Shown: positions 1,300 through 15,886 of the stretch, piece after piece
How the letters are laid out: each line of letters opens with the position of its first letter
Numbering within the stretch: the first letter of the stretch is position 1
Assembly (NCBI GenBank): GCA_018268135.1
Contig: JAFDXD010000135.1
Coordinates: 1 to 64,000 of the forward strand
Length of the DNA stretch: 64,000 nt
From: Bacteroidota bacterium
GTDB lineage: Bacteria; Bacteroidota; Bacteroidia; Chitinophagales; Chitinophagaceae
Reading direction: 5' to 3'
Made by a program: the position numbers and the translations under genes
The notes under the pieces: generated by a model
Seen by the model: only the letters and a program-made list of their open reading frames with translations
Database searches by the model: none
Told to the model about the DNA's origin: nothing

Positions 1300-2856
1300 T
1301 TATTGCTCCTCATGCTTGCTTGTTTTTTCAAATTTGTCTTTAATGATATTTTGCACAGGTACTCCATCTATTTTACTCTCCAGCCAGCTTACAATATCAA
1401 GGTATTGATAAGAGCGTCGATTGTATTTGCTTTCCGAAATTTTTTCTAATTTATCTCTTAGCTGTACAAATGATTTTTTTACATCTTTTGGTTTAGACGA
1501 TAATGAGCGCCTTAAAAAAGTAAATACTTCAGCCAATACTGCATCAAGATTTTCCATTTTTGATAAAAACCGGTAAACAGATTTTATGAGGTACTCAACC
1601 AATATCATATTTCCCAATTCGTAATGAGCAATTAGGTGAAGCAACCTTGCAAAACATTGAATGTCGGTGCGTAACTGTCCTACTCTTAAATGTATGATCC
1701 GATTTAAATATACAATGGCATTTTCATTATCGCCAGAGCCAAAATACAAGCTTGCTATTTTATAATAAAAAACAAGAACTCTGTGAGTATCAATGTATTG
1801 TTGATATTGCTTCAATTTTAATTCAATAGGATGCACCAGGCTTAATCCTTCTGTAAAAGTGCCTTCTAAAAAGTGAACATTTATTTTTGCGGTATAGAGA
1901 TATACAAAGGCTTGTATCTCCAGGTTTTCATTAAATGCTCCGGATATGGCATAAAATTTTTCAAAATGCTCCAGCTCTTTCAGCATCTTTTTATGCCTGC
2001 CAATAATAAACAAAGCATTTAAAAGATTGTGCATGGCTTTTACATATAAAAAGGGATCTTCCTTTTTTACCTCGGGGTGTTTTTCAAAAAGATGTACCCA
2101 TTTTTCGGCATGACGGTAATATTTTGTAAAGTCGAGTTGAATTATATAATACCAGCAATAACTTTGGTGCAAATATGCTTTTCCAAAAAAACTCACTTGC
2201 TCTTCGTTAATGCCTGCAATGTTTTTCCTAAAAATTTTTTCAATTTCATGGCTATGCTTTTCATCGGTTACGTGCCCATTGTCGAGATAAAGCTCATACA
2301 TTCTCAATGCAAGGTTTGATAAGTGTGTAACTTCATTAATTTGGCCAATTACATAATTGGTTTCATCAATAAGTGCACCTGCCCTACCCTTTAGGCTGCG
2401 GGTAATATGTCTTCCTTCAATATCTTTTTCAAACTGAAGAATCTCAAGGGTAAGAATAAAATGACTGTTTGCCTTTGCCAGGTTTTTAGCCTTGTCCAAT
2501 ATTTTAAGGGCTTGTAAAATCAACCCCCTGTTATATAAAATTTTTGCAAAATCTATCTGCTCCCTTATTTGAATTTCCAGGTTTTTTACACTGTGCAGCA
2601 ATCTTAAGGCTTTGAGCAATTCTCCATACAAATGTGCTTTAATATTGGGCAATTGCTGGCGTACGATAGTGGGGCATTTTTTTAGAATTTGCTCTTCATT
2701 ATACTCACGAATACTTTCTAAAGCATCAAAAAGCTTTACAAATTTTGCCTCTTCATTTGACTGGTTTCGGGAAATATATAGTTTAAAATGGCGCTTTTCG
2801 GCAGCCGTTAGTGACTTTATCAACAAAAAAAGAGAATCATTAATATTGTTTGGCAT
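1300..2856 (-). CDS. Conserved hypothetical alpha-helical (TPR-like) protein
   Basis: The 518-residue product has no signal peptide or membrane segment and is predicted from composition to be almost entirely helical. Repeated blocks of the kind A-x-x-Y-x-x-G-x-x-x-x-A-L-x-x-L occur around residues 105-130 (FAKILYNRGLILQALKILDK) and 345-395 (YKIASLYFGSGDNENAIVYL), which suggests tetratricopeptide-like repeats acting as a protein-interaction scaffold. I do not recognise a more specific family; long proteins of this appearance are common in Chitinophagaceae. ATG start at 2856 is preceded by a leader of about 100 nt with a good -7 element. It is transcribed divergently from the leucine genes, but nothing in the sequence ties it to that pathway. 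Confidence 0.6.
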   Translation of the reverse strand: MPNNINDSLFLLIKSLTAAEKRHFKLYISRNQSNEEAKFVKLFDALESIREYNEEQILKKCPTIVRQQLPNIKAHLYGELLKALRLLHSVKNLEIQIREQIDFAKILYNRGLILQALKILDKAKNLAKANSHFILTLEILQFEKDIEGRHITRSLKGRAGALIDETNYVIGQINEVTHLSNLALRMYELYLDNGHVTDEKHSHEIEKIFRKNIAGINEEQVSFFGKAYLHQSYCWYYIIQLDFTKYYRHAEKWVHLFEKHPEVKKEDPFLYVKAMHNLLNALFIIGRHKKMLKELEHFEKFYAISGAFNENLEIQAFVYLYTAKINVHFLEGTFTEGLSLVHPIELKLKQYQQYIDTHRVLVFYYKIASLYFGSGDNENAIVYLNRIIHLRVGQLRTDIQCFARLLHLIAHYELGNMILVEYLIKSVYRFLSKMENLDAVLAEVFTFLRRSLSSKPKDVKKSFVQLRDKLEKISESKYNRRSYQYLDIVSWLESKIDGVPVQNIIKDKFEKTSKHEEQ

Positions 2857-2962
2857 CGTAAATTATTTTGTCAAAATGCCATACCACAGGCACTTTCATG
2901 CATTTAACCCACGTTTTTAGCAGCGTATTTAGCCTTTATTTTAATTTATTTATACCTGATAA

Positions 2963-2970
2963 CAAAGGTA
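2963..2970 (-). promoter_or_regulatory. -7 promoter element for the 518-residue gene
   Basis: On the minus strand the bases read TACCTTTG, a full match to TAnnTTTG. A TTTG lies about 14 bases further upstream, shorter than the usual 17-21. Transcription would start near 2957, giving a leader of about 100 nt. Confidence 0.45.
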
Positions 2971-3024
2971 ATTTACATGCTACTCAAACTTACATGAAAT
3001 TTTTCATTCATTACCGGTTACTTG

Positions 3025-3056
3025 TTTGAAAAGAAAAATAGATACTGGTAGGTTTC
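3025..3056 (+). promoter_or_regulatory. Candidate promoter of the leu operon
   Basis: TTTG at 3025-3028, a 20-base spacer, then TAGGTTTC at 3049-3056, one mismatch from TAnnTTTG. The predicted leader to leuA is about 70 nt. It contains no ATG and no strong terminator, so no attenuator of the ilv kind is visible here; the only structure seen is a short GGCA/TGCC hairpin near 3093-3105. Confidence 0.45.
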
Positions 3057-3130
3057 GTAGGAACATTTTATACATTTTTAAAATAAAAAATAAGGCAAAA
3101 TTGCCCAATTAAGTTTCAAACTATACTATC

Positions 3131-4294
3131 ATGGCAGAAAATAAAATTTTCATTTTTGATACTACCTTAAGAGATGGCGAACAGGTGCCCGGTTGTAAAC
3201 TAAATACTGCTGAAAAAATAGAACTCGCCTTGCAGCTTGAAGAACTGGGCGTAGATATTATTGAAGCAGGCTTCCCTATCTCCTCTCCCGGCGATTTTTC
3301 GTCAGTAAACGAAATATCTAAAGCAATTAAAAATGCATCTGTATGTGGCCTTACCCGTGCAGTACAAAAAGATATTGAAGTAGCCGCTGATGCTTTAAAA
3401 TATGCCAAACGCCCACGCATACATACGGGCATCGGCACATCTGATTTGCATATAAAAGCAAAATTTAATGCTACCCGTGAGGAAATATTGGAAAGAGCCA
3501 AACAAGCTGTAAAATGGGCTAAAAATTTTGTAGATGATGTAGAGTTTTATGCAGAAGACGCCGGGCGTACTGAAAATGAATATTTAGCTCGTGTAACCGA
3601 AGCCGTTATTGAAGCCGGCGCCACTACGGTAAACATTCCGGATACCACAGGCTATTGCCTACCACATCAATATGGCGAAAAAATTGCTTACTTAATGAAC
3701 CATGTACCCAATATTGACAAAGCAGTTATTTCCTGCCATTGCCACAATGACCTTGGCCTGGCAACAGCCAACTCAATCTCGGGCATTATCAATGGGGCAA
3801 GGCAAATAGAATGTACCATCAATGGCCTGGGCGAAAGAGCCGGCAACACTTCCTTAGAAGAAGTAGCCATGATTATTCAGCAACATAAAACCCTTGGATT
3901 TTATACTGGAATTCAAAGCCGACTGCTTAATCCTTTAAGCCGAACAGTATCTGATGTAATGCGCATGCCGGTGCAACCTAATAAAGCCATTGTAGGCAGC
4001 AATGCTTTCTCGCATTCATCCGGCATACACCAGGATGGATTTTTGAAAGATGCTTTAACATATGAAATCATTAATCCCGAAGAAGTGGGTGCAGACAGTT
4101 CTAAAATTGTACTAACAGCAAGGAGTGGACGAAGCGCCCTGGCTTTTAGGTTTCAAAAATTAGGATTTCAATTTGACCGGAATGATGTAGATACTCTGTA
4201 CAACGAATTTTTAAAAATAGCAGATAGTAAAAAAGAAGTAAGCGATGACGACCTGCAAATAATCGGCAAATCACATTCAGCACAAACGGCCTGA
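3131..4294 (+). CDS. leuA: 2-isopropylmalate synthase
   Basis: Condenses acetyl-CoA with 2-oxoisovalerate, the first committed step to leucine. The 387 residues hold the DRE-TIM barrel with [12 protein letters not shown] near the N-terminus, the metal-binding [14 protein letters not shown] motif and the NGLGERAGN motif, then the linker with [10 protein letters not shown]. The protein stops at about the position where the roughly 130-residue leucine-binding dimer domain of E. coli LeuA (523 residues) would begin, so it is the short type and may be insensitive to leucine feedback; that last point is inference. First gene of the cluster; leuC follows after 70 bases. The homologous homocitrate synthase is less likely given the leu neighbours. 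Confidence 0.95.
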
Positions 4295-6408: not shown

Positions 6409-7851
6409 ATGCAAAAATCAACCATTTTAGAAGTCAATAATCTTACGGTACAATTTGCGGGTAAAAAGGTACTGAATAACCTTTCTTTTACCATAAAGGA
6501 AGGCGAGACTCTTGCTATTGTTGGCTCTTCAGGAAGTGGAAAAACTACATTAATTAAAACCCTTGCAAGCAGGCATACCAATGGAAGTGTTGCCTTTGCA
6601 GGCGCTCCCCGTATAGCTACTATTTCTCAGCAGCATGTATTTAAAAATCTTTCTAACACTTCTAACTTTTATTATCAACAACGATTTAACTCTTGCGATT
6701 CAGAAGATGCACTTAGCATAAATGATGTACTGGCAACAACCGGGTGTAAGGAAGATAAAATTATAGAAACCCTTCAGGTGTTAGGGATGAGCCATTTAAG
6801 GTTTACCAGGTTAATCCAACTATCTAACGGAGAGCATAAACGCTTTCAAATTGCAAAAGCCATATTGCAAAATGCAGAATGGATACTTTTTGACAGCCCT
6901 TATGCAGGCCTTGATGCTTCTGCAAGGGATTTATTAAATACCATCATCACTTCGCTTATTTCAAAAAAAATAAATATCATCCTTGTAACTTCTTACGGCG
7001 AAATGCCCTCATTTGTTACTCATATTGCCGAATTAGAAAAAGGAAATTTAAAAGAAAAAATAACGCTGACAGCTTTCAATAATAACATTGCCACTAATAA
7101 TTATCAAAAACATCTGCCTTCAATTGATATTAATACATTAGCAACAGTATCTGGTTTTCAGGAATCAGAAAATTGTACAGTGATACTCAAAATGGTTAAT
7201 ACTAATGTAAGGTATCAGCAAAAGCAAATTCTTTACAATATTAACTGGAGAGTAAACAGAGGGGAATGTTGGAGTATTATCGGACATAATGGTTCCGGTA
7301 AATCAACCCTGCTCAGCCTCATTACCGGCGATAACCCACAAGCATTTGCAAATGAAATATATTTATTTGGCCAAAAAAAAGGGAGTGGAGAAACCATTTG
7401 GGAAATCAAGAAAAAAATAGGATATGTATCACCGGAATTGCATCATTATTTTGATGCCAGCAGTACTTGCTTTGATGTGGTTGCCTCTGGTTTATTCGAT
7501 ACCATTGGATTATTTAAATCACTCAACTCTTCACAAAAGAAATTAGTAAGGCAATGGATGGATTTGTTTCATATAAGTAAGTTTGAAAAAAATGCTTTCA
7601 GGCAATTGTCTAATGGGGAGCAAAGGCTTGTGTTGCTTGCCAGGGCGCTTATTAAAAACCCACCTTTACTGATTTTAGATGAACCATGCCAGGGGCTTGA
7701 TGCTGAAAATGCTACATGGTTTATTTCGCTTATCAACAATATTTGTAAGAATCAAAATAAAACATTGATTTATGTTACACATTACGAACATGAAATTCCT
7801 GAATGTGTAACCAAAACATTAAAACTACACCAGGGAAAAATTGCAGTTTAA
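6409..7851 (+). CDS. Twin-domain ABC ATPase, ModF/PhrA-like
   Basis: The 480-residue protein is two ABC ATPase domains in tandem with no membrane segment. Domain 1: Walker A GSSGSGKTT at 39-47, signature LSNGE at 138-142, Walker B ILFDSP at 159-164. Domain 2: Walker A GHNGSGKST at 292-300, signature LSNGE at 400-404, Walker B LILDEP at 421-426, switch histidine at 458. In domain 1 the catalytic Glu after Walker B is Ser163 and the switch His is replaced (VTSYGE), so only the second site looks hydrolytically complete. The layout resembles E. coli ModF (PhrA), whose role is poorly known. It sits inside the leu operon, 7 bases after leuD and 15 before leuB. A transport role without a permease is unlikely; any link to leucine synthesis is open. 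Confidence 0.8.
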   Translation: MQKSTILEVNNLTVQFAGKKVLNNLSFTIKEGETLAIVGSSGSGKTTLIKTLASRHTNGSVAFAGAPRIATISQQHVFKNLSNTSNFYYQQRFNSCDSEDALSINDVLATTGCKEDKIIETLQVLGMSHLRFTRLIQLSNGEHKRFQIAKAILQNAEWILFDSPYAGLDASARDLLNTIITSLISKKINIILVTSYGEMPSFVTHIAELEKGNLKEKITLTAFNNNIATNNYQKHLPSIDINTLATVSGFQESENCTVILKMVNTNVRYQQKQILYNINWRVNRGECWSIIGHNGSGKSTLLSLITGDNPQAFANEIYLFGQKKGSGETIWEIKKKIGYVSPELHHYFDASSTCFDVVASGLFDTIGLFKSLNSSQKKLVRQWMDLFHISKFEKNAFRQLSNGEQRLVLLARALIKNPPLLILDEPCQGLDAENATWFISLINNICKNQNKTLIYVTHYEHEIPECVTKTLKLHQGKIAV

Positions 7852-7866
7852 AATAAAATAAAACCC

Positions 7867-8982
7867 ATGATAAAAAAAATAGCAGTATTAAATGGAGATG
7901 GTATTGGGCCGGAAGTAACCTCCCAGTCTGTAAATATTTTAAAAGCCATTGCTGAGCAATATGGCCATCAGTTTGAATTTAAATATGCACTGATAGGAGC
8001 TGATGCAATTGACAAAACAGGTAACCCACTGCCTACCGAAACTATTGACATTTGCTTAGACAGTGATGCCATTTTATTTGGTGCTATTGGGCACCCCAAA
8101 TACGATAATGACCCTACAGCCAAAGTGAGGCCGGAGCAGGGTTTGCTCGGTTTGAGAAAAGCCCTTCAACTGTATGCCAATATCCGCCCGGTTACCACCT
8201 ACCCTACCCTTCATTTTTTGTCACCTTTAAAGAGTAAAAATATTGAAGAAGTAGATTTTGTAATATACCGTGAGCTTACGGGTGGTATATATTTTGGCAA
8301 AAAAACATTAAGCGATGATGGCCAAACAGCATCAGACGATTGCGCATATACGAAAACAGAAATAGAGAGAGTTGCTCAGCTTGCTTTTAAAGCAGCCCAG
8401 CAAAGAAGAAAAAAATTAACGCTGGTAGATAAAGCCAATGTATTAGAAACCTCAAGGCTTTGGCGGAAAATTGTACAGGAAATTTCTTCACAATATTCTG
8501 ACGTAACGGTAGAATATTTATTTGTAGATAATGCTGCAATGCAAATTATTTTAAATCCAAAACAATTTGATGTAATCCTTACAGAAAATATGTTTGGAGA
8601 TATCATTAGCGATGAAGCCAGTGTTATAAGCGGCTCGCTTGGGTTGCTGCCTTCAGCATCTGTAGGTAACAGAACAGCTTTATTTGAACCCATTCATGGG
8701 TCGTACCCACAGGCTGCCGGTAAAGATATTGCTAACCCCATTGGCTCTATTTTATCTGCTGCAATGCTGCTTGACCACCTTGATTTAAAAGCAGAAGCTG
8801 CATTGGTACGAAATGCAGTGGCCTGGACTATCAACAACAAATTTGTAACAAAAGATATTGATCCTATCAATTTCTATTTTACTACCACAGTTGGCGAGTT
8901 GGTGATAGATTTTATTAAAAAGAATTTTGCCGAGAGAATTCATGATGAAAATATTGAGTTGAGAAAATCAACCATTATTTAA
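7867..8982 (+). CDS. leuB: 3-isopropylmalate dehydrogenase
   Basis: NAD-dependent oxidation and decarboxylation of 3-isopropylmalate to 4-methyl-2-oxopentanoate. The 371 residues show AVLNGDGIGPEV at the start, the substrate-binding ELTGGIYFG, the lysine region LTLVDKANVLETS, the metal-binding LTENMFGDIISDEASVISGS, and EPIHGSYPQAAGKDIANPIG at the cofactor site. Full length and intact. The gene closes the leu half of the cluster. The promoter of the ilv half begins about 17 bases after its stop codon, and no terminator of its own is visible, so leu transcripts would have to pass the ilv attenuator to enter ilvD. Confidence 0.96.
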   Translation: MIKKIAVLNGDGIGPEVTSQSVNILKAIAEQYGHQFEFKYALIGADAIDKTGNPLPTETIDICLDSDAILFGAIGHPKYDNDPTAKVRPEQGLLGLRKALQLYANIRPVTTYPTLHFLSPLKSKNIEEVDFVIYRELTGGIYFGKKTLSDDGQTASDDCAYTKTEIERVAQLAFKAAQQRRKKLTLVDKANVLETSRLWRKIVQEISSQYSDVTVEYLFVDNAAMQIILNPKQFDVILTENMFGDIISDEASVISGSLGLLPSASVGNRTALFEPIHGSYPQAAGKDIANPIGSILSAAMLLDHLDLKAEAALVRNAVAWTINNKFVTKDIDPINFYFTTTVGELVIDFIKKNFAERIHDENIELRKSTII

Positions 8983-8999: not shown

Positions 9000-9030
9000 T
9001 TTGTTTATATAACAGGCAGTTGTACTTTCG
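9000..9030 (+). promoter_or_regulatory. Promoter of the ilv attenuator and operon
   Basis: TTTG at 9000-9003, a spacer of exactly 19 bases, then TACTTTCG at 9023-9030, one mismatch from TAnnTTTG. Transcription is expected to start near 9036, about 10 bases before the leader peptide ATG. This spacing is among the best of any promoter in the window. Confidence 0.7.
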
Positions 9031-9046
9031 TGGCATAATTTTCTTC

Positions 9047-9154
9047 ATGCAAAAAGCGAAAGTATATAATGTAATGAATGCCATCAGCAGTATTATTATT
9101 GTGGCTGTCATTATTATTATTCCTGCTCTGCATGGAGGAAGCGCTATCTTTTAA
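9047..9154 (+). CDS. ilv operon leader peptide (35 residues)
   Basis: A short ORF, ATG at 9047 and TAA at 9152, ending 21 bases before a terminator hairpin and 117 before ilvD. Residues 13-25 are ISSIIIVAVIIII, that is eight consecutive-region Ile codons plus two Val (nine Ile counting residue 13), followed by PALHGG near the C-terminus; Val also occurs at 6 and 9, and Ile at 34. The core resembles E. coli IlvL, which contains VVVIIIPP. Codons 30-33 double as the 5' arm of the predicted antiterminator. When Ile-tRNA or Val-tRNA is scarce the ribosome should stall at codons 16-25. The peptide itself probably has no function. No Shine-Dalgarno site is present. Start and frame are read directly; the regulatory role is inferred from the whole arrangement. 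Confidence 0.85.
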   Translation: MQKAKVYNVMNAISSIIIVAVIIIIPALHGGSAIF

Positions 9155-9191
9155 AATAACAAAATTAAAAAATACAAAGCGGTTCATCTCC
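9134..9191 (+). promoter_or_regulatory. Predicted antiterminator of the ilv attenuator
   Basis: GGAGGAAGCGCT (9134-9145, leader codons 30-33) can pair with AGCGGTTCATCTCC (9178-9191): four pairs, a two-base bulge (9186-9187), three pairs, one G-G mismatch, four pairs. This pairing takes up the left arm of the terminator at 9176-9186, so the two hairpins exclude each other. A ribosome stalled in the Ile/Val run leaves 9134-9145 free; one at the stop codon covers it. Confidence 0.7.
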
Positions 9192-9213
9192 AAAAAGGTG
9201 AACCGCTTTTTTT
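9176..9213 (+). terminator. Intrinsic terminator of the ilv attenuator
   Basis: Perfect 11-bp stem, AAAGCGGTTCA (9176-9186) with TGAACCGCTTT (9199-9209), a 12-base loop and a run of seven T from 9207. It lies after the leader peptide and 58 bases before ilvD, the position of a classical attenuator. Confidence 0.88.
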
Positions 9214-9271
9214 ATTTATATATTATACTTAAGAATTAGTAACCATCAATTAGACATCTGAAAAAATAAAT

Positions 9272-10960
9272 ATGAACGAACTAAATAAACATTCAAAAAC
9301 ACTCACCCAGGACGATACCTTACCGGGTGCACAGGCCATGTACTATGCCATTGGTTTTAAAGAAGAAGATTTTAAAAAAGCACAGGTTGGTATAGTAAGT
9401 ATGGGCTGGGATGGTAACCCATGCAATATGCATCTTAATGATTTATCAAACCTGGTAAAAACAAGTGTAAACGCTGTGGATGGATTGTTGGGGTTAAGAT
9501 TTTATACCATTGGAGTAAGCGATGGTATTAGCATGGGAACCGATGGTATGCGTTATAGCCTTGTAAGCAGAGATTTGATTGCAGATAGTATTGAAACAAA
9601 TGCAGGTGCCCAATATTATGATGGCATTATTGCCATACCCGGTTGCGATAAAAATATGCCTGGCTCTGTAATTGCCATGGGAAGGTTAAACAGGCCGTCC
9701 ATTATGTTGTACGGCGGCACCATTGAGCCAGGCCATTACAAAGGCGAAGACTTAAATATTGTAAGTGCATTTGAGGCATTGGGGCAAAAAATTGCAGGCA
9801 ATTTAGATGAAGCAGATTTTAAAGGAATTGTACAACACAGTTGCCCCGGAGCAGGCGCTTGCGGAGGCATGTACACAGCCAATACTATGGCAAGTGCGAT
9901 AGAAGCCCTTGGCATGAGCCTGCCAAACAGTAGCAGCAACCCGGCTTTAAGCATAGATAAACAAAATGAATGCAATGTCATTGGTGAAGCCATCAAAATA
10001 TTATTAGAAAAAGATATTAAGCCTAAAGATATCATGACAAGAAAGGCTTTTGAAAATGCAATGACGATAGTGATGGTTTTGGGTGGAAGCACAAATGCTG
10101 TACTGCATTTAATAGCCATTGCAAAAAGTGTTGATATCACATTAACGCCAGACGATTTTCAGGCGATTAGTAATAAAGTGCCGTTGCTTGCTGATTTTAA
10201 ACCTAGTGGAAAATACTTAATGGCAGACTTACATGCACATGGCGGTGTGCCGGCAGTGATGAAATACTTATACAGCAAAGGTTTGTTGCATGGCGACTGC
10301 ATTACGGTAACCGGTAAAACAGTGGCAGAGAATTTGAAAAATGCGCCTGATTTAGATTTTGAGAAACAAAAAATTATCATGCCATTAGAAACACCACTAA
10401 AACCAACAGGGCACCTGCAAATATTGTATGGCAACCTGGCAGAAAAAGGAAGTGTAGCAAAAATTTCAGGAAAAGAGGGTGAGCGTTTTGAAGGAACTGC
10501 AAGAGTATTTAATGGCGAAAAAGATTTAATATCCGGAATACAATCGGGCAAAGTACACAAAGGTGATGTGGTCGTCATACGATACATCGGGCCAAAGGGA
10601 GCACCCGGTATGCCCGAAATGCTAAAACCCACAGGAGCTATAATAGGCGCAGGTTTGGGAAAATCTGTTGCCTTGATAACTGATGGTAGATTTAGCGGCG
10701 GTACACACGGTTTTGTAGTTGGGCATATTACGCCCGAAGCTTATGATGGCGGATTAATTGGATTGGTAGAAGACAATGATATCATTGAAATAGATGCTGT
10801 CAACAACAAGCTGACTTTAAAAGTATCTGAAGAAATTATTGCTCAACGTAAAAGAAATTGGAAACAGCCTGCATTAAAAGCCACTAAAGGAGTTTTATAC
10901 AAATATGCTATAAGTGTAAAAAATGCAAGTGAAGGTTGCGTAACAGATCAGGCACAATAA
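9272..10960 (+). CDS. ilvD: Dihydroxy-acid dehydratase
   Basis: Dehydrates the dihydroxy acids in isoleucine and valine synthesis. The 562-residue protein carries the three cluster cysteines expected of the [2Fe-2S] type: GNPCNMH near residue 50, [11 protein letters not shown] near 125, and [18 protein letters not shown] near 195, and the C-terminal [21 protein letters not shown]. Normal length. First structural gene behind the attenuator; ilvB follows after 22 bases. Confidence 0.97.
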
Positions 10961-10982: not shown

Positions 10983-12719
10983 ATGGAAACACTAGAAATT
11001 GCAAAAGCAAAAAAGGCAAAAGCAGAAACAACTTCTATTTCAGGCTCAGTTGCTGTGTTAGAAGCTTTGATAGCCGAAAATGTAACGGAAATATTTGGTT
11101 ACCCCGGCGGCGCTATTATGCCAATCTATGATGCATTGTATGATTATGAAAGAAAACTTCATCATATTTTAGTAAGGCATGAGCAAGGTGCCATACATGC
11201 TGCACAAGGCTATGCAAGAGCCAGTGGCAAAACCGGGGTAGTATTTGCAACCAGTGGCCCCGGCGCTACAAATCTTGTAACGGGCCTTGCAGATGCCATG
11301 ATAGACAGCACTCCTGTAGTATGCATTACCGGCCAGGTATTTGCCCAACTATTAGGCACAGACGCTTTTCAGGAAACAGATGTAGTAAATATAACCACTC
11401 CCATTACCAAATGGAATTACCAGGTTACAGATGCATCTGAAATTCCTTCTGTATTAGCTAAAGCATTTTATATTGCTTCAAGCGGCAGGCCTGGCCCTGT
11501 GCTGGTTGATATCACTAAAAATGCCCAGCAACAATTATTTGAATATGCCGGGTATAAAAAATGTGATCATATCAGGAGCTATCGTCCTAAACCAATTATC
11601 AGGAAAGAATATGTAGAAAATGCAGCGAAGCTGATAAATGAAGCAAAAAAACCATTCGTAATATTTGGCCAGGGAATTATTTTAGGCAAGGCAGAAAAAG
11701 AATTCACTGCTTTTTTAGAAAAAGGAAATTTACCAGCAGCCTGGACCATTTTAGGTATGAGCGCCATCCCTACAGATCACCCATTGGGGGTTGGCATGTT
11801 GGGTATGCATGGTAATTATGGACCAAATGTATTAACCAACGAATGTGATGTTTTAATAGCTGTAGGTATGCGTTTTGATGACAGGGTTACCGGCAGGCTT
11901 GATAAATATGCAAAGCAAGCCAAAATAATTCACCTTGATATTGACCCGGCCGAAATTGATAAAAATGTAAAAACAACCGTATCGGTATGGGGAGATTGTA
12001 AAGAAACATTGCCGATGCTCACAGCATTAATTGACAAAAAAGATCATAAAAGCTGGCTGCAAAAATTTGCGACACTTAAAAAACAAGAGGATGAAACCTG
12101 CATCAATGCTGAACTAAACCCTACTGGTGAAGAAATGACCATGGGCGAAGTAATCAAAACCCTGAATGAATTAACAAAAGGAAATGCAATTATAGTAACT
12201 GATGTAGGCCAGCACCAAATGGTAGCTTGCCGCTATGCAAAATACAATAACAGCAAAAGCAATATTACCAGCGGAGGGCTTGGCACCATGGGTTTTGCAT
12301 TGCCTGCAGCAATAGGCGCCAAATTAGGAACGCCTAACAACACTGTAATTGCAATAGCCGGTGATGGCGGATTTCAAATGAACATTCAGGAACTGGGAAC
12401 CATTATGCAATCAAATATTGGAGTAAAAATATTGGTACTAAATAATCAGTTTTTAGGAATGGTGCGTCAGTGGCAGGAATTATTTATGGACAAAAGATAT
12501 TCATTTACAAATATTACCAGCCCTGATTTTGTAAAGGTTGCCGAAGCATACAATATTCCCGGAGAAAAAGTAACCGACAGATCAGCCTTAAAAAATGCAT
12601 TGCAAAAAATGCTTGAAAGCAAAGGAGCTTATTTGTTAGAAGTAATGGTTGGTAAAGAAAACAATGTATTTCCAATGGTACCACAGGGCTGTAGTGTGAG
12701 CGAAATAAGATTAAAATAA
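10983..12719 (+). CDS. ilvB: Acetolactate synthase, large (catalytic) subunit
   Basis: Thiamine diphosphate enzyme that makes acetolactate or acetohydroxybutyrate. The 578 residues show the three expected domains: PYR domain with FGYPGGAIMPIYDAL and the active-site Glu in LVRHEQGAIHAAQGYARASG, the middle domain with VGMRFDDRVTG, and the C-terminal domain with the cofactor motif IAGDGGFQMNIQELGT followed by NNQFLGMVRQWQ. The first ~15 residues are Lys/Ala-rich and not conserved. It is followed by its regulatory partner ilvN after 27 bases. Confidence 0.96.
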   Translation: METLEIAKAKKAKAETTSISGSVAVLEALIAENVTEIFGYPGGAIMPIYDALYDYERKLHHILVRHEQGAIHAAQGYARASGKTGVVFATSGPGATNLVTGLADAMIDSTPVVCITGQVFAQLLGTDAFQETDVVNITTPITKWNYQVTDASEIPSVLAKAFYIASSGRPGPVLVDITKNAQQQLFEYAGYKKCDHIRSYRPKPIIRKEYVENAAKLINEAKKPFVIFGQGIILGKAEKEFTAFLEKGNLPAAWTILGMSAIPTDHPLGVGMLGMHGNYGPNVLTNECDVLIAVGMRFDDRVTGRLDKYAKQAKIIHLDIDPAEIDKNVKTTVSVWGDCKETLPMLTALIDKKDHKSWLQKFATLKKQEDETCINAELNPTGEEMTMGEVIKTLNELTKGNAIIVTDVGQHQMVACRYAKYNNSKSNITSGGLGTMGFALPAAIGAKLGTPNNTVIAIAGDGGFQMNIQELGTIMQSNIGVKILVLNNQFLGMVRQWQELFMDKRYSFTNITSPDFVKVAEAYNIPGEKVTDRSALKNALQKMLESKGAYLLEVMVGKENNVFPMVPQGCSVSEIRLK

Positions 12720-12746: not shown

Positions 12747-13385
12747 ATGACAACACAAAAAACAAATATACCTGCTGCCGCTACTGTTGCCACAGGGCAA
12801 AAAGCAGAATACAGCTTAACGGTTTATACAGAAAATCAAATTGGATTGTTAAACAGAATTGCCATTATGTTTTCTCGTAGAAAAATAAATGTAATTAGTT
12901 TAAATACATCGCCTACTGAAGTAGATAGCGTACACCGCTTCACTATTGTAATTAATGAAACTGAAGAAGTTGTTAGAAAATTATGCAGGCAAATTGAAAA
13001 ACAAGTAGATGTTTTAAAAGCATTTTATAATACCGATGAAGAAATTATTTGGCAGGAAATGGCCTTATACAAAGTACCTACGGATGAAGTTGCCGAAAAA
13101 GTAAAAGTAGAAAGGCTTTTACGAAAGTATGGTGCAAGGGCGGTAGTAATTAGAAAAGATTATACCGTATTTGAAACTACCGGACACAGAGAAGAAACTG
13201 ACAGCCTTATTAAAGCGCTGGAGCCTTATGGACTGATAGAATTTGTACGAAGCGCAAGAGTGGCTATCATTAAAGACAGTAAAGGATTTCATGAAAAATT
13301 AAAATCATACGAAAAATCAGATCCCGGAGAGGAATTAATAGAAAACGAATTTTTGAATCAACAGGATGAAGTATTTACAATGTAA
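12747..13385 (+). CDS. ilvN: Acetolactate synthase, small (regulatory) subunit
   Basis: The 212 residues hold an N-terminal ACT domain (about 20-95, with YTENQIGLLNRIAIMFSRRKINVISLNTSPT) that in the family binds valine and confers feedback inhibition on IlvB, and the C-terminal ALS-SS domain. It is longer than E. coli IlvN (about 96) and similar in layout to the IlvH type, with a non-conserved start of about 18 residues. Adjacent to ilvB, as usual. A 128-base gap to ilvC holds a weak AATACC/GGTATT hairpin with a later T-run at 13418-13426, too far from the stem to be a convincing terminator. Confidence 0.93.
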   Translation: MTTQKTNIPAAATVATGQKAEYSLTVYTENQIGLLNRIAIMFSRRKINVISLNTSPTEVDSVHRFTIVINETEEVVRKLCRQIEKQVDVLKAFYNTDEEIIWQEMALYKVPTDEVAEKVKVERLLRKYGARAVVIRKDYTVFETTGHREETDSLIKALEPYGLIEFVRSARVAIIKDSKGFHEKLKSYEKSDPGEELIENEFLNQQDEVFTM

Positions 13386-13513: not shown

Positions 13514-14560
13514 ATGGCAACATTAAATTTTGCAGGAACTGAAGAGAATGTAGTAACAAGAGAAGAATTTCCCTTATCTAAAGCCCAGCAGGTTTTAAAA
13601 AATGAAACAGTGGCAGTAATTGGCTATGGTGTACAAGGTCCGGGACAGGCTTTGAACCAAAAAGAAAATGGCATAAATGTAATTGTAGGCCAAAGAAAAA
13701 ATTCGAAAAGCTGGGATAAAGCGGTGCAGGATGGATTTGTAGAAGGAGAAACTTTATTTGAAATTGAAGAAGCCCTACAAAGAGGAACTATTATTTGCTA
13801 CCTGCTGAGCGATGCTGCACAAATTGCAATGTGGCCTACCGTTAAAAAATATTTAACTCCGGGAAAAGCATTGTATTTTTCGCATGGCTTTGGTATTACC
13901 TACAATGATCAAACAGGTATTATACCACCTGCAGATGTTGATGTATTTTTAGTAGCACCAAAAGGAAGTGGTACTTCATTGCGCCGTATGTTTTTGCAAG
14001 GCCGTGGATTAAATAGTAGTTACGCCATTTTTCAGGATGCAACAGGCAAAGCATTTGACAGAGTAGTTGCATTGGGCATTGCCATTGGCTCAGGCTATTT
14101 ATTTGAAACTACTTTTAAAAAAGAAGTTTATTCAGACCTTACCGGCGAAAGAGGTACACTCATGGGCGCTATACAAGGAATATTTGCAGCACAATTTGAA
14201 GTGCTTCGCTCTAAAGGCCACTCTCCTTCTGAAGCATTTAACGAAACAGTAGAAGAGCTTACACAATCATTAATGCCATTGGTGGCAGAAAACGGAATGG
14301 ATTGGATGTATGCCAATTGCAGTACCACCGCACAGCGTGGCGCATTAGACTGGTGGAAAAAATTTAGAGATGCTACCCTTCCAGTATTTAACGATTTGTA
14401 CAACAGTGTAGCCGAAGGTAAAGAAGCTGCAAAGTCTATTGAAAGTAATAGCAAGACTGATTATAGAGAAAAATTGAATGCAGAATTAAAAGAACTGCAC
14501 GATAGTGAACTATGGCAGGCAGGCAGAACAGTAAGAAGCCTACGCCCCGAAAATCAATAA
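13514..14560 (+). CDS. ilvC: Ketol-acid reductoisomerase
   Basis: NADPH-dependent isomerisation and reduction of acetohydroxy acids. The 348 residues show a Rossmann start with AVIGYGVQGPGQALN and the phosphate-binding region VGQRKNSKSWDKA, the catalytic histidine in YFSHGFGI, and an all-helical C-terminal domain with metal ligands in FKKEVYSDLTGERGTLMG. The length fits the short class I enzymes. The fingerprint GYGVQGPG replaces the GYGSQGHA seen in many bacteria. It is followed by a strong hairpin before ilvA. Confidence 0.95.
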   Translation: MATLNFAGTEENVVTREEFPLSKAQQVLKNETVAVIGYGVQGPGQALNQKENGINVIVGQRKNSKSWDKAVQDGFVEGETLFEIEEALQRGTIICYLLSDAAQIAMWPTVKKYLTPGKALYFSHGFGITYNDQTGIIPPADVDVFLVAPKGSGTSLRRMFLQGRGLNSSYAIFQDATGKAFDRVVALGIAIGSGYLFETTFKKEVYSDLTGERGTLMGAIQGIFAAQFEVLRSKGHSPSEAFNETVEELTQSLMPLVAENGMDWMYANCSTTAQRGALDWWKKFRDATLPVFNDLYNSVAEGKEAAKSIESNSKTDYREKLNAELKELHDSELWQAGRTVRSLRPENQ

Positions 14561-14626: not shown

Positions 14627-15886
14627 ATGAATAATACATCAGCTACCAGTGTAAAGGCGCTCCATTTTGAAGAAGCAGCCAAAAGGCTGAAACCCGTAGT
14701 GTATCAAACTGCCCTGCAGCTCAATCATCATTTATCGGCAAAGTATAAATGCAATATTTTTTTAAAAAGAGAAGATTTGCAGGTTGTACGCTCCTATAAA
14801 ATTAGAGGGGCATACAATATGATGAGTAGTATTTCAAACGAAGTATTGCAAAAAGGCGTAGTATGTGCAAGCGCAGGTAATCATGCACAGGGGTTTGCAT
14901 ACTCTTGCAAAAAATTAAACTGTAAGGGAGTGGTTTTTATGCCGGTAATTACGCCAAACCAAAAGATTAATCAAACTAAAATGTTTGGTGGCTCTTTTAT
15001 AGAAATAAAATTAGTAGGCGACACTTTTGACGATTGCGCCGCTGCGGCAAAAGAATATACCGAACAAAATCACATGACTTTTATTCCTCCCTTTGATGAT
15101 TTAAAAATTATTGAAGGCCAGGGCACCGTTGCTGTAGAAATATTTGAAGAGCACCAGCAGGTGGACTATTTATTTATACCCGTTGGTGGCGGAGGATTAT
15201 GTGCAGGCATTGGCTCCTACTTTAAAACATTTTCTCCTCATACAAAAATAATTGGAGTAGAGCCTGAGGGCGCTCCTTCTATGTTTGAGGCATTAAAAGC
15301 CGGCAAACCCGTAGAGCTTGAAAGTATTGACAGATTTGTAGATGGAGCATCTGTAAAAAAAGTAGGCGATATCACCTTCTCTATTTGCAAAGATGTGTTG
15401 GATGACATGCACCTGGTAGCAGAAGGTAAAGTATGCTCTACCATTTTAAATTTATACAACGAAGATGCCATTGTAGCTGAGCCGGCAGGCGCTTTATCCA
15501 TTGCTGCACTGGATGATTATGCTGAAGAAATAAAAGGAAAAAATGTAGTATGTATTGTAAGCGGCAGCAATAATGATATTGACCGTATGCAGGAAATAAA
15601 AGAACGCAGCCTGCAGTATGAAGGTTTAAAACATTATTTTCTAATACGCTTTGCTCAGCGCCCGGGTGCATTAAAAGAATTTGTAAATCATGTATTGGGG
15701 CAAACGGATGATATCACCCGTTTTGAATATATGCAAAAGCATAATAAAGAAACCGGCCCTGCCCTTGTTGGTATTGAGCTTAAAGCTAAAGAAGATTACG
15801 ATTTACTCTTAAAAAAATTAGTGGAGTATAAAATTAATTTTACAGAATTAAAGCAGGGCGACAATGCTTTTGGCTATTTGGTATAG
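14627..15886 (+). CDS. ilvA: Threonine ammonia-lyase, biosynthetic
   Basis: PLP enzyme that converts threonine to 2-oxobutanoate and ammonia, the entry to isoleucine. The 419 residues show the PLP lysine in VRSYKIRGAYN, SAGNHAQGFA, the phosphate-binding PVGGGGLCAGI, and AEPAGALSIAAL. After residue about 325 comes one ACT-like regulatory domain (YFLIRFAQRPGALKEFVNHV), as in the short B. subtilis form rather than the two in E. coli. In a complete ilv cluster the biosynthetic role is far likelier than catabolic TdcB, which lacks the regulatory domain. Last gene of the cluster before a terminator. Confidence 0.95.
   Translation: MNNTSATSVKALHFEEAAKRLKPVVYQTALQLNHHLSAKYKCNIFLKREDLQVVRSYKIRGAYNMMSSISNEVLQKGVVCASAGNHAQGFAYSCKKLNCKGVVFMPVITPNQKINQTKMFGGSFIEIKLVGDTFDDCAAAAKEYTEQNHMTFIPPFDDLKIIEGQGTVAVEIFEEHQQVDYLFIPVGGGGLCAGIGSYFKTFSPHTKIIGVEPEGAPSMFEALKAGKPVELESIDRFVDGASVKKVGDITFSICKDVLDDMHLVAEGKVCSTILNLYNEDAIVAEPAGALSIAALDDYAEEIKGKNVVCIVSGSNNDIDRMQEIKERSLQYEGLKHYFLIRFAQRPGALKEFVNHVLGQTDDITRFEYMQKHNKETGPALVGIELKAKEDYDLLLKKLVEYKINFTELKQGDNAFGYLV

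Follow-up and report, generated by a model that had tools for sequence, protein, structure and literature searches.

A probable Ile/Val leader-peptide attenuator ahead of ilvDBNCA in a Chitinophagaceae genome, and pathway-matched leaders in other Bacteroidota

Results

The stretch of DNA analyzed here (the window; 64,000 nucleotides) very likely carries, ahead of its ilv genes, a ribosome-mediated transcription attenuator that works through the Ile/Val run of a leader open reading frame (ORF) and a predicted antiterminator. The element combines an ORF whose amino acids match the pathway, a terminator before the first gene, an antiterminator that excludes this terminator, and a corresponding ribosome-masking geometry, the last by computation. 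In E. coli, the ilvGMEDA attenuator has a leader peptide, IlvL, that is rich in branched-chain codons and contains a VVVIIIPP stretch similar to the run in the window; its antiterminator and terminator exclude each other. The initial annotation had invoked this E. coli-like logic from a leader and a terminator only, with no antiterminator, and was right as far as sequence can tell. Transcription of ilvDBNCA would thereby be set by the charging of tRNA-Ile and tRNA-Val.

Gene neighborhood, promoter, and leader ORF

The leuB and ilv genes described here lie on the + strand. The first gene behind the attenuator is ilvD (9272-10960; PF00920 match, E = 2.9e-127), followed by ilvB (10983-12719), ilvN (12747-13385), ilvC (13514-14560), and ilvA (14627-15886), all four named by eye from their translations; the five genes are presumed to form one operon. 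Upstream of the leader lies leuB (7867-8982), and the gene order on that side is leuA, leuC, leuD, ABC-type ATPase, leuB (named by eye). The ATPase gene between leuD and leuB (6409-7851) appears by eye to encode two domains, and a relative of it also adjoins leuB in three other loci (L075, L076, and L086). No Leu leader was seen before leuA when positions 2800-3200 were read by eye.

A Bacteroidota-type promoter is evident on the + strand from its sequence (TTTG at 9000-9003, 19 nt, and TACTTTCG at 9023-9030), with the elements present as the initial annotation had described them; the 5′ end of the transcript would fall near 9035. A scan of the leader region for E. coli-type promoters returned no match on the + strand. 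Of 48 aligned relatives, 46 have a TAnnTT[TC][GA] box no more than 60 nt from the ATG; in shuffled sequences the mean was 9.1 and the maximum 16. By eye, a GGCGG-like element recurs in relatives' promoter spacers directly 5′ of the TAnnTTTG box (e.g., L008, L013, L021, and L072), with a weak version in the window (GGCAG at 9015-9019, upstream of the presumed transcript); it is perhaps a promoter part or an operator. In one relative (L086), a GC-rich palindrome, CCGGACTTAAGTCCGG, lies in the 5′ untranslated region, after the promoter and ahead of the leader ORF; it may be a small repeat that was inserted there.

The predicted leader ORF (ATG at 9047; 9047-9154, + strand; 35 codons, MQKAKVYNVMNAISSIIIVAVIIIIPALHGGSAIF*) has related leaders in relatives. 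Its putative control codons, 16 to 25 (9092-9121), read ATT ATT ATT GTG GCT GTC ATT ATT ATT ATT, so that 9 of 10 specify Ile or Val and codon 20 specifies Ala; the claim of a 35-codon ORF with mostly Ile/Val at these positions was thus borne out by counting. No Shine-Dalgarno sequence is evident before the leader. Bacteroidota mostly initiate translation without Shine-Dalgarno sequences.

Terminator, antiterminator, and other pairings in the window

A terminator scan placed an intrinsic terminator at 9176-9219 (+ strand; −19.9 kcal/mol), consisting of a stem-loop at 9176-9209 (AAAGCGGTTCATCTCCAAAAAGGTGAACCGCTTT; strands 3 and 4; 14 pairs by the tool's count, with G-T allowed, and a loop of 6) and a T-rich tail. 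With its run of seven T's at 9207-9213 and ilvD starting at 9272, it is the terminator noted at the outset, and it covaries in relatives. It was the only terminator-like site on either strand of 601 bases (shuffled mean, 0.3). The RNA from 9030 to 9225 is far more stable when folded (−58.7 kcal/mol) than its shuffles (mean, −34.0; z = −6.1), none of 200 reaching the same stability.

The missing antiterminator is found by pairing. Its 5′ half, strand 2 (TGGAGGAAGCGCT; 9133-9145, + strand), spans the third base of the His29 codon through codon Ala33 of the leader; its partner, strand 3 (AGCGGTTCATCTCCA; 9178-9192, + strand), is common to antiterminator and terminator. The duplex of 9133-9145 with 9178-9192 has 12 pairs, one mismatch, and one two-base bulge (−16.4 kcal/mol; P = 0.02 against shuffles; own arm ranked 6th of 63). 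Because strand 2 pairs with the 5′ arm of the terminator, the two structures cannot coexist and are predicted to be mutually exclusive in the window.

A further pairing in the MFE fold suggests a possible strand 1 (UUUUCUUCAUGCA; 9039-9051, + strand) lying over the start codon and complementary to 9129-9141 (duplex, −16.5 kcal/mol; P = 0.007). Were this strong candidate strand 1 to pair, an untranslated leader would terminate in the window. Among relatives, a 1:2 helix appears in the MFE fold of 28 of 48 leaders and reaches P < 0.05 against shuffles in 13 of 48. We looked for covariation of such a protector helix in the 48-leader alignment and found none, and 480 of 500 shuffles paired equally well. 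A protector helix shared by every relative is therefore not supported.

Conservation of the ilv leader in relatives

We searched 151 ilvD upstream regions (the window's own, 30 and then 40 loci from relatives, and 80 named records); left out of this sampling were the high-scoring ilvD loci G131, G146, G158, G169 on C8, and G181, and matches at paralogue level. The detector called an Ile/Val/Leu-rich ORF with a terminator just behind it and complementarity between both. It matched 81 of 151 ilvD regions, compared with 5 of 151 reverse complements. Five matches were discounted by eye as coding-like or chance (L124, L125, L137, L144, and L149), leaving 76 of 151, as were the first hit in L133 and the second in L080, while the reverse-complement hits were kept unthinned. 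Some genomes apparently occur twice among the loci (e.g., L031/L075, L027/L104, and L067/L101), and a peptide-similarity filter reduced the 81 to 63, or to 65 under slightly changed limits.

The nearest named relatives are Chitinophagaceae, in which many leader peptides follow M-x-NN-x-(I/V)9-10-P-A-L-H-GGG and the terminators take the form AAAGCCCGCCTCC-loop-GGCGGGCTTT. The Ile/Val run is present in the aligned relatives by construction, because they were selected for such a run. Cultured carriers of a leader include Niastella populi and Chitinophaga type strains (L090, L126, L127, L133, L143, and L151). Named records of Cyclobacteriaceae/Chryseosolibacter showed a leader in both cases (2 of 2). 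None was accepted among Sphingobacteriaceae (n = 10) or Fermentimonas (n = 2) records, where 4 detector hits and 1, respectively, were discounted by eye. One genome of the same genus that has ilvD (G050) yielded no leader by detector or covariance model.

RNA pairing was assessed on an alignment of 48 of the 65 leaders; it omits 11 with another arm type and, from the other 54, also L017, L126, L127, L128 (second), L134 (second), and L143, for the same reason. In this alignment the terminator helix (3:4) was paired in 90.9% of cells, with changes on both sides at 7 of 11 pairs. All 500 shuffles fell short on four of five measures; the exception was the number of further pair types, which 55 of 500 reached. 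The antiterminator helix (2:3) was paired in 89.1% of cells. Both-sided changes occurred at 2 of its 8 pairs, each in one sequence, as its sequence barely varies within the main type; the observed values were reached by few shuffles (both-sided changes, 3 of 500; paired share, 9 of 500; covariation score, 13 of 500). The initial annotation had looked to related Chitinophagaceae for a conserved short ORF with covarying hairpins: both ORF and terminator prove conserved, with covariation in the terminator, and the antiterminator is conserved but little varied.

We also scored each leader against its own and foreign terminator arms in 63 leaders picked without using complementarity, related leaders being non-independent samples. 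The mean score was 19.9 with the own arm and 16.9 with foreign arms. In 18 leaders unlike the main type, the difference was larger (20.9 versus 14.7), and the own arm was unbeaten within the group in 10 of 18. The own arm came first in only 8 of 63 leaders, many arms being near-identical; shuffled arms were beaten at P < 0.05 in 42 of 63 leaders and not in the other 21.

These data bear on another reading, in which the ORF is a gene for a small hydrophobic membrane protein, the hairpin does no more than end its transcript, and ilvD is transcribed from a promoter of its own. The leader peptides do resemble a single transmembrane segment, and many have PALHGGG-like residues at the C terminus. 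However, leaders with other arms (e.g., L011, L017, L126, L128, and L138) have different C-terminal codons, each matching its own arm. At the first Gly codon of the leaders, the third position takes part in antiterminator pairing and is nearly invariant: 44 of 48 leaders use GGA there, compared with 28.7% of 6,057 Gly codons in the ilvD genes of the fetched loci. A membrane protein would also leave unexplained the His, Trp, and Phe/Tyr leaders of the same layout before hisG, trpE, and pheA (see below). We consider this reading very unlikely and retain that of an attenuator.

At E ≤ 0.01, a covariance model (R1) built from the 48 leaders matched 225 of 394 family genomes and 74 of 101 genera, in a search that included the model's own source genomes. 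No further copy of the ilv element was accepted in the window's own genome, where the next matches had E values of only 0.05 and weaker. Of 37 family loci that were fetched (L160 to L196), 36 carry ilvE or ilvD downstream of the element (ilvE, identified by eye, in 29), and a leuB match lies beside the leader in 35; the leader thus tracks the operon, not ilvD as such. The sole exception, L193, has an Ile/Val leader before a single ACT-domain (ilvN-like) gene away from the main operon.

Across a 395-genome sample of the phylum, R1 matched 47 genomes, 10 in the family and 37 outside it, the latter weakly (E = 7e-6 to 0.01). Among 20 outside-family loci (L197 to L210 and L212 to L217), nine carry Ile/Val leaders before ilv-type genes, three carry His leaders, and four carry Thr/Ile leaders; L202, L206, L213, and L217 show no plausible leader. 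In L204, an Ile/Val leader precedes an ilvA located away from the main operon.

Ribosome position and proposed mechanism

To model ribosome position, 29 nt around the ribosome were masked and the RNA was folded up to strand 3 in 65 leaders. The model gave strand 3 a mean pairing with upstream sequence of 0.59 when the ribosome sat in mid-run and 0.60 when it sat at the run's end; the mean was 0.01 with the ribosome on the stop codon and 0.55 with no ribosome. End-of-run values exceeded those at the stop codon in 65 of 65 leaders, as did mid-run values in 64 of 65; in this model the end-of-run value was above the ribosome-free one in only 28 of 65. In the window, the four conditions gave 0.63, 0.59, 0.01, and 0.31, in the same order. 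By the model, stalling would expose strand 2 and completion of the leader would hide it. The mean of 0.55 with no ribosome would imply that an untranslated leader reads through in most relatives.

We propose the following sequence of events for the window. Transcription would start near 9035, and a ribosome would begin the leader without an evident Shine-Dalgarno sequence. When charged tRNA-Ile and tRNA-Val are ample, the ribosome would reach the stop codon and cover strand 2 (9133-9145), so that strands 3 and 4 (9176-9209) would terminate transcription at about 175 to 180 nt. With either tRNA uncharged, the ribosome would stall within 9092-9121, and the free strand 2 would capture strand 3; the terminator being blocked, RNA polymerase would presumably continue into ilvD-B-N-C-A. 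If the leader is untranslated, strand 2 may instead pair with the start-codon region (9039-9051), a step suggested for the species of the window only.

Termination might also act without ribosome sensing, either as a default read-through fraction or under a DNA-binding regulator at the promoter, for which the GGCGG-like spacer element, recurrent by eye in many relatives, is a possible operator. Such a scheme leaves unexplained both the placement of the Ile/Val codons one ribosome length before strand 2 and the match of amino acid to pathway; we judge it even less probable than the membrane protein, and ribosome-mediated attenuation remains our preferred reading.

Tandem Ile/Val leaders

In 13 loci (L128, L134, L135, L136, L140, L141, L145, L147, L199, L200, L207, L214, and L215), ilvE or an ilvN-like gene is preceded by two consecutive Ile/Val leaders, both of which have their own terminator and a matching antiterminator. 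Seven of these loci are Chryseobacterium by name and one is Flavobacterium; L199, L200, L207, L214, and L215 belong to the same class, their order being assigned from likeness. The pair was present in 8 of 9 named Flavobacteriales records, the Elizabethkingia record (L122) showing one leader. Read-through would require relief of both gates. Two leader ORFs in series, each with a role in attenuation, are also described in the account of Salmonella mgtCBR that we drew on (PMC3641672); the signals there differ (ATP and proline), whereas the tandem leaders here are both Ile/Val-rich.

Leaders of other pathways

Model R1 also drew weak matches with other amino acid runs. His-rich leaders precede hisG (named by eye) in L208, L212, and L216, and a Phe/Tyr-rich leader precedes pheA in L211, a locus within the family whose gene was confirmed by search. 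A Thr/Ile-rich, thr-leader-like ORF precedes aspartokinase in L203, L205, L209, and L210, and also in L322; the enzymes of the first four share 39.5 to 41.7% identity with 218 residues of the own-genome aspartokinase (tblastn).

Because of these weak matches, we looked in the family (30 genomes per gene) for hisG, pheA, trpE, and homoserine dehydrogenase and applied a single rule, an amino-acid-rich ORF followed by a terminator, to 1,500 nt upstream. The ilvD set for this comparison comprised the own locus and 30 others, some from other families of the order. An Ile/Val leader was found in 20 of 31 ilvD regions, the other 11 having none within the 1,500 nt. His leaders preceded hisG in 22 of 24 cases, Phe/Tyr leaders pheA in 21 of 22, and Trp leaders trpE in 22 of 23. 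Under the single rule there were no crossovers between amino acid and pathway in any comparison, and reverse complements gave 1 of 31 and 1 of 23.

The window's own genome likely has counterparts with matching amino acids before its his, trp, and phe genes, each with a terminator. They are a His-containing leader before hisG (MIQINHIHHHHLLPTGKLC; L224, contig C8), a leader with only two Trp before trpE (MTTTKLNNKSWCWHINNN; L302, contig C27), and a Phe/Tyr-containing leader before pheA (MKHINTYNWQSFCFYYFSSKPGMVCTH; L244, contig C57), the latter two weaker than in relatives. The pheA leader was missed by the first rule and found with a lower limit; a weak R1 match (C57:18198-18268; E = 0.35) also lies directly before pheA. 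No Thr leader was found before the own-genome thrA in a 1,601-nt stretch (L321). Two of 20 stretches passed the Thr search in the family, of which L322 is good and L332 looks like chance; the positions of these stretches were estimated, and one spanned only 764 nt.

Discussion

A structured 5′ region with a terminator before an amino acid operon could also be a riboswitch or T-box that senses the free amino acid or the tRNA directly. No Rfam family matched at its curated cutoff at 9000-9213, in 15 ilv-leader loci, or in 13 loci of other pathways, so that none was found at cutoff in the window region or the 28 loci scanned; elsewhere in the window, only RNase P and a tRNA did. Moreover, what is conserved is a reading frame and one switch helix, not an aptamer. 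To direct sensing we assign the smallest probability of the readings considered, next to none, and we keep to an attenuator read by the ribosome. A PyrG leader candidate at 9143-9217 was rejected as chance-level (27.4 bits; cutoff, 65).

Among Rfam entries, RF01692 (Bacteroid-trp RNA), which we take to be a Trp leader, is likewise a Bacteroidota cis-regulatory RNA of an amino acid operon. It matched the window region neither at the gathering threshold nor up to E = 10, and it gave no match to the own-genome trpE leader. The part of its source that we drew on lists it for Bacteroidetes (PMC2864571). The trpB motif (RF04312) matches the own-genome trpE leader over its full length (32 bits; E = 0.0088), below the 59-bit cutoff, and was not reported for the ilv leader.

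In layout, the window element shares with E. coli ilvGMEDA a leader ORF rich in branched-chain codons, a mutually exclusive antiterminator and terminator, and ilv genes behind them. It differs in phylum, in a run without Leu codons, and in the lack of an evident Shine-Dalgarno sequence. Unlike in E. coli, strand 2 of the window is GGA-GGA-AGC (GGA-GGN-GGN in relatives), and its 1:2 protector is only a candidate. Leader-based ilv attenuation outside the Proteobacteria is described for Corynebacterium ilvBNC (PMC11857589 and PMC10272879), an actinobacterial case set beside the window by the descriptions in those papers alone.

The initial annotation had remarked that such attenuation is far better documented in Proteobacteria than in Bacteroidota, and the literature, in the passages relevant here, agrees. 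The leader-peptide systems of Naville and Gautheret (2010; PMC2965389) come from Proteobacteria and Actinobacteria only, with Firmicutes added, and a 2013 survey suggests a gammaproteobacterial origin (PMC3766115). Precedent within the phylum comes from one sentence on Flavobacterium psychrophilum, which reports strong clues for leader-peptide attenuation before amino acid biosynthesis operons, with 5′ elements of pheA and hisG conserved in other Flavobacteriaceae genera (PMC9723704); that organism belongs to another order, and the section of this transcriptome paper does not name ilv. In the portions of two further papers bearing on the subject, a map of Bacteroides thetaiotaomicron notes small ORFs reminiscent of leader peptides (PMC7366714), and a leader-gene study lists Bacteroidetes with the phyla in which short ORFs closely precede genes, an arrangement interpreted in that study as reinitiation and not attenuation (PMC4833913). 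No earlier description of the elements reported here was among the literature matches listed, a search for which subscription journals were mostly outside the scope, and an earlier prediction is possible.

The mechanism is of a known kind, that of classical ribosome-mediated attenuation. What is new is how far it extends in Bacteroidota, and the pathway-matched repertoire and the tandem layout are the parts worth specialist follow-up. On balance, we lean toward the view that Bacteroidota have a full set of ribosome-sensing leaders of their own (ilv, his, phe, trp, and some thr), unmatched by the enterobacterial Rfam leader models, together with a double Ile/Val gate in Flavobacteriales. If so, RNA polymerase and ribosome would be closely coupled in this phylum; since attenuators need a ribosome close behind RNA polymerase, transcription-translation coupling in Bacteroidota becomes directly testable. 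Leader-peptide attenuation would then not be a gammaproteobacterial invention, and a conserved, pathway-matched set in Bacteroidota argues that the mechanism is much older or was repeatedly invented. The leaders would also provide ready-made amino acid sensors and a list of small ORFs for a phylum important in gut and soil.

A side observation concerns the pathway itself. Of 195 relatives from within the genus, family, and order, only 83 gave a PF00920 (IlvD/EDD) match; among the 151 genomes with a completeness of 90% or more, 68 did. This distribution suggests that Ile/Val synthesis has been lost repeatedly.
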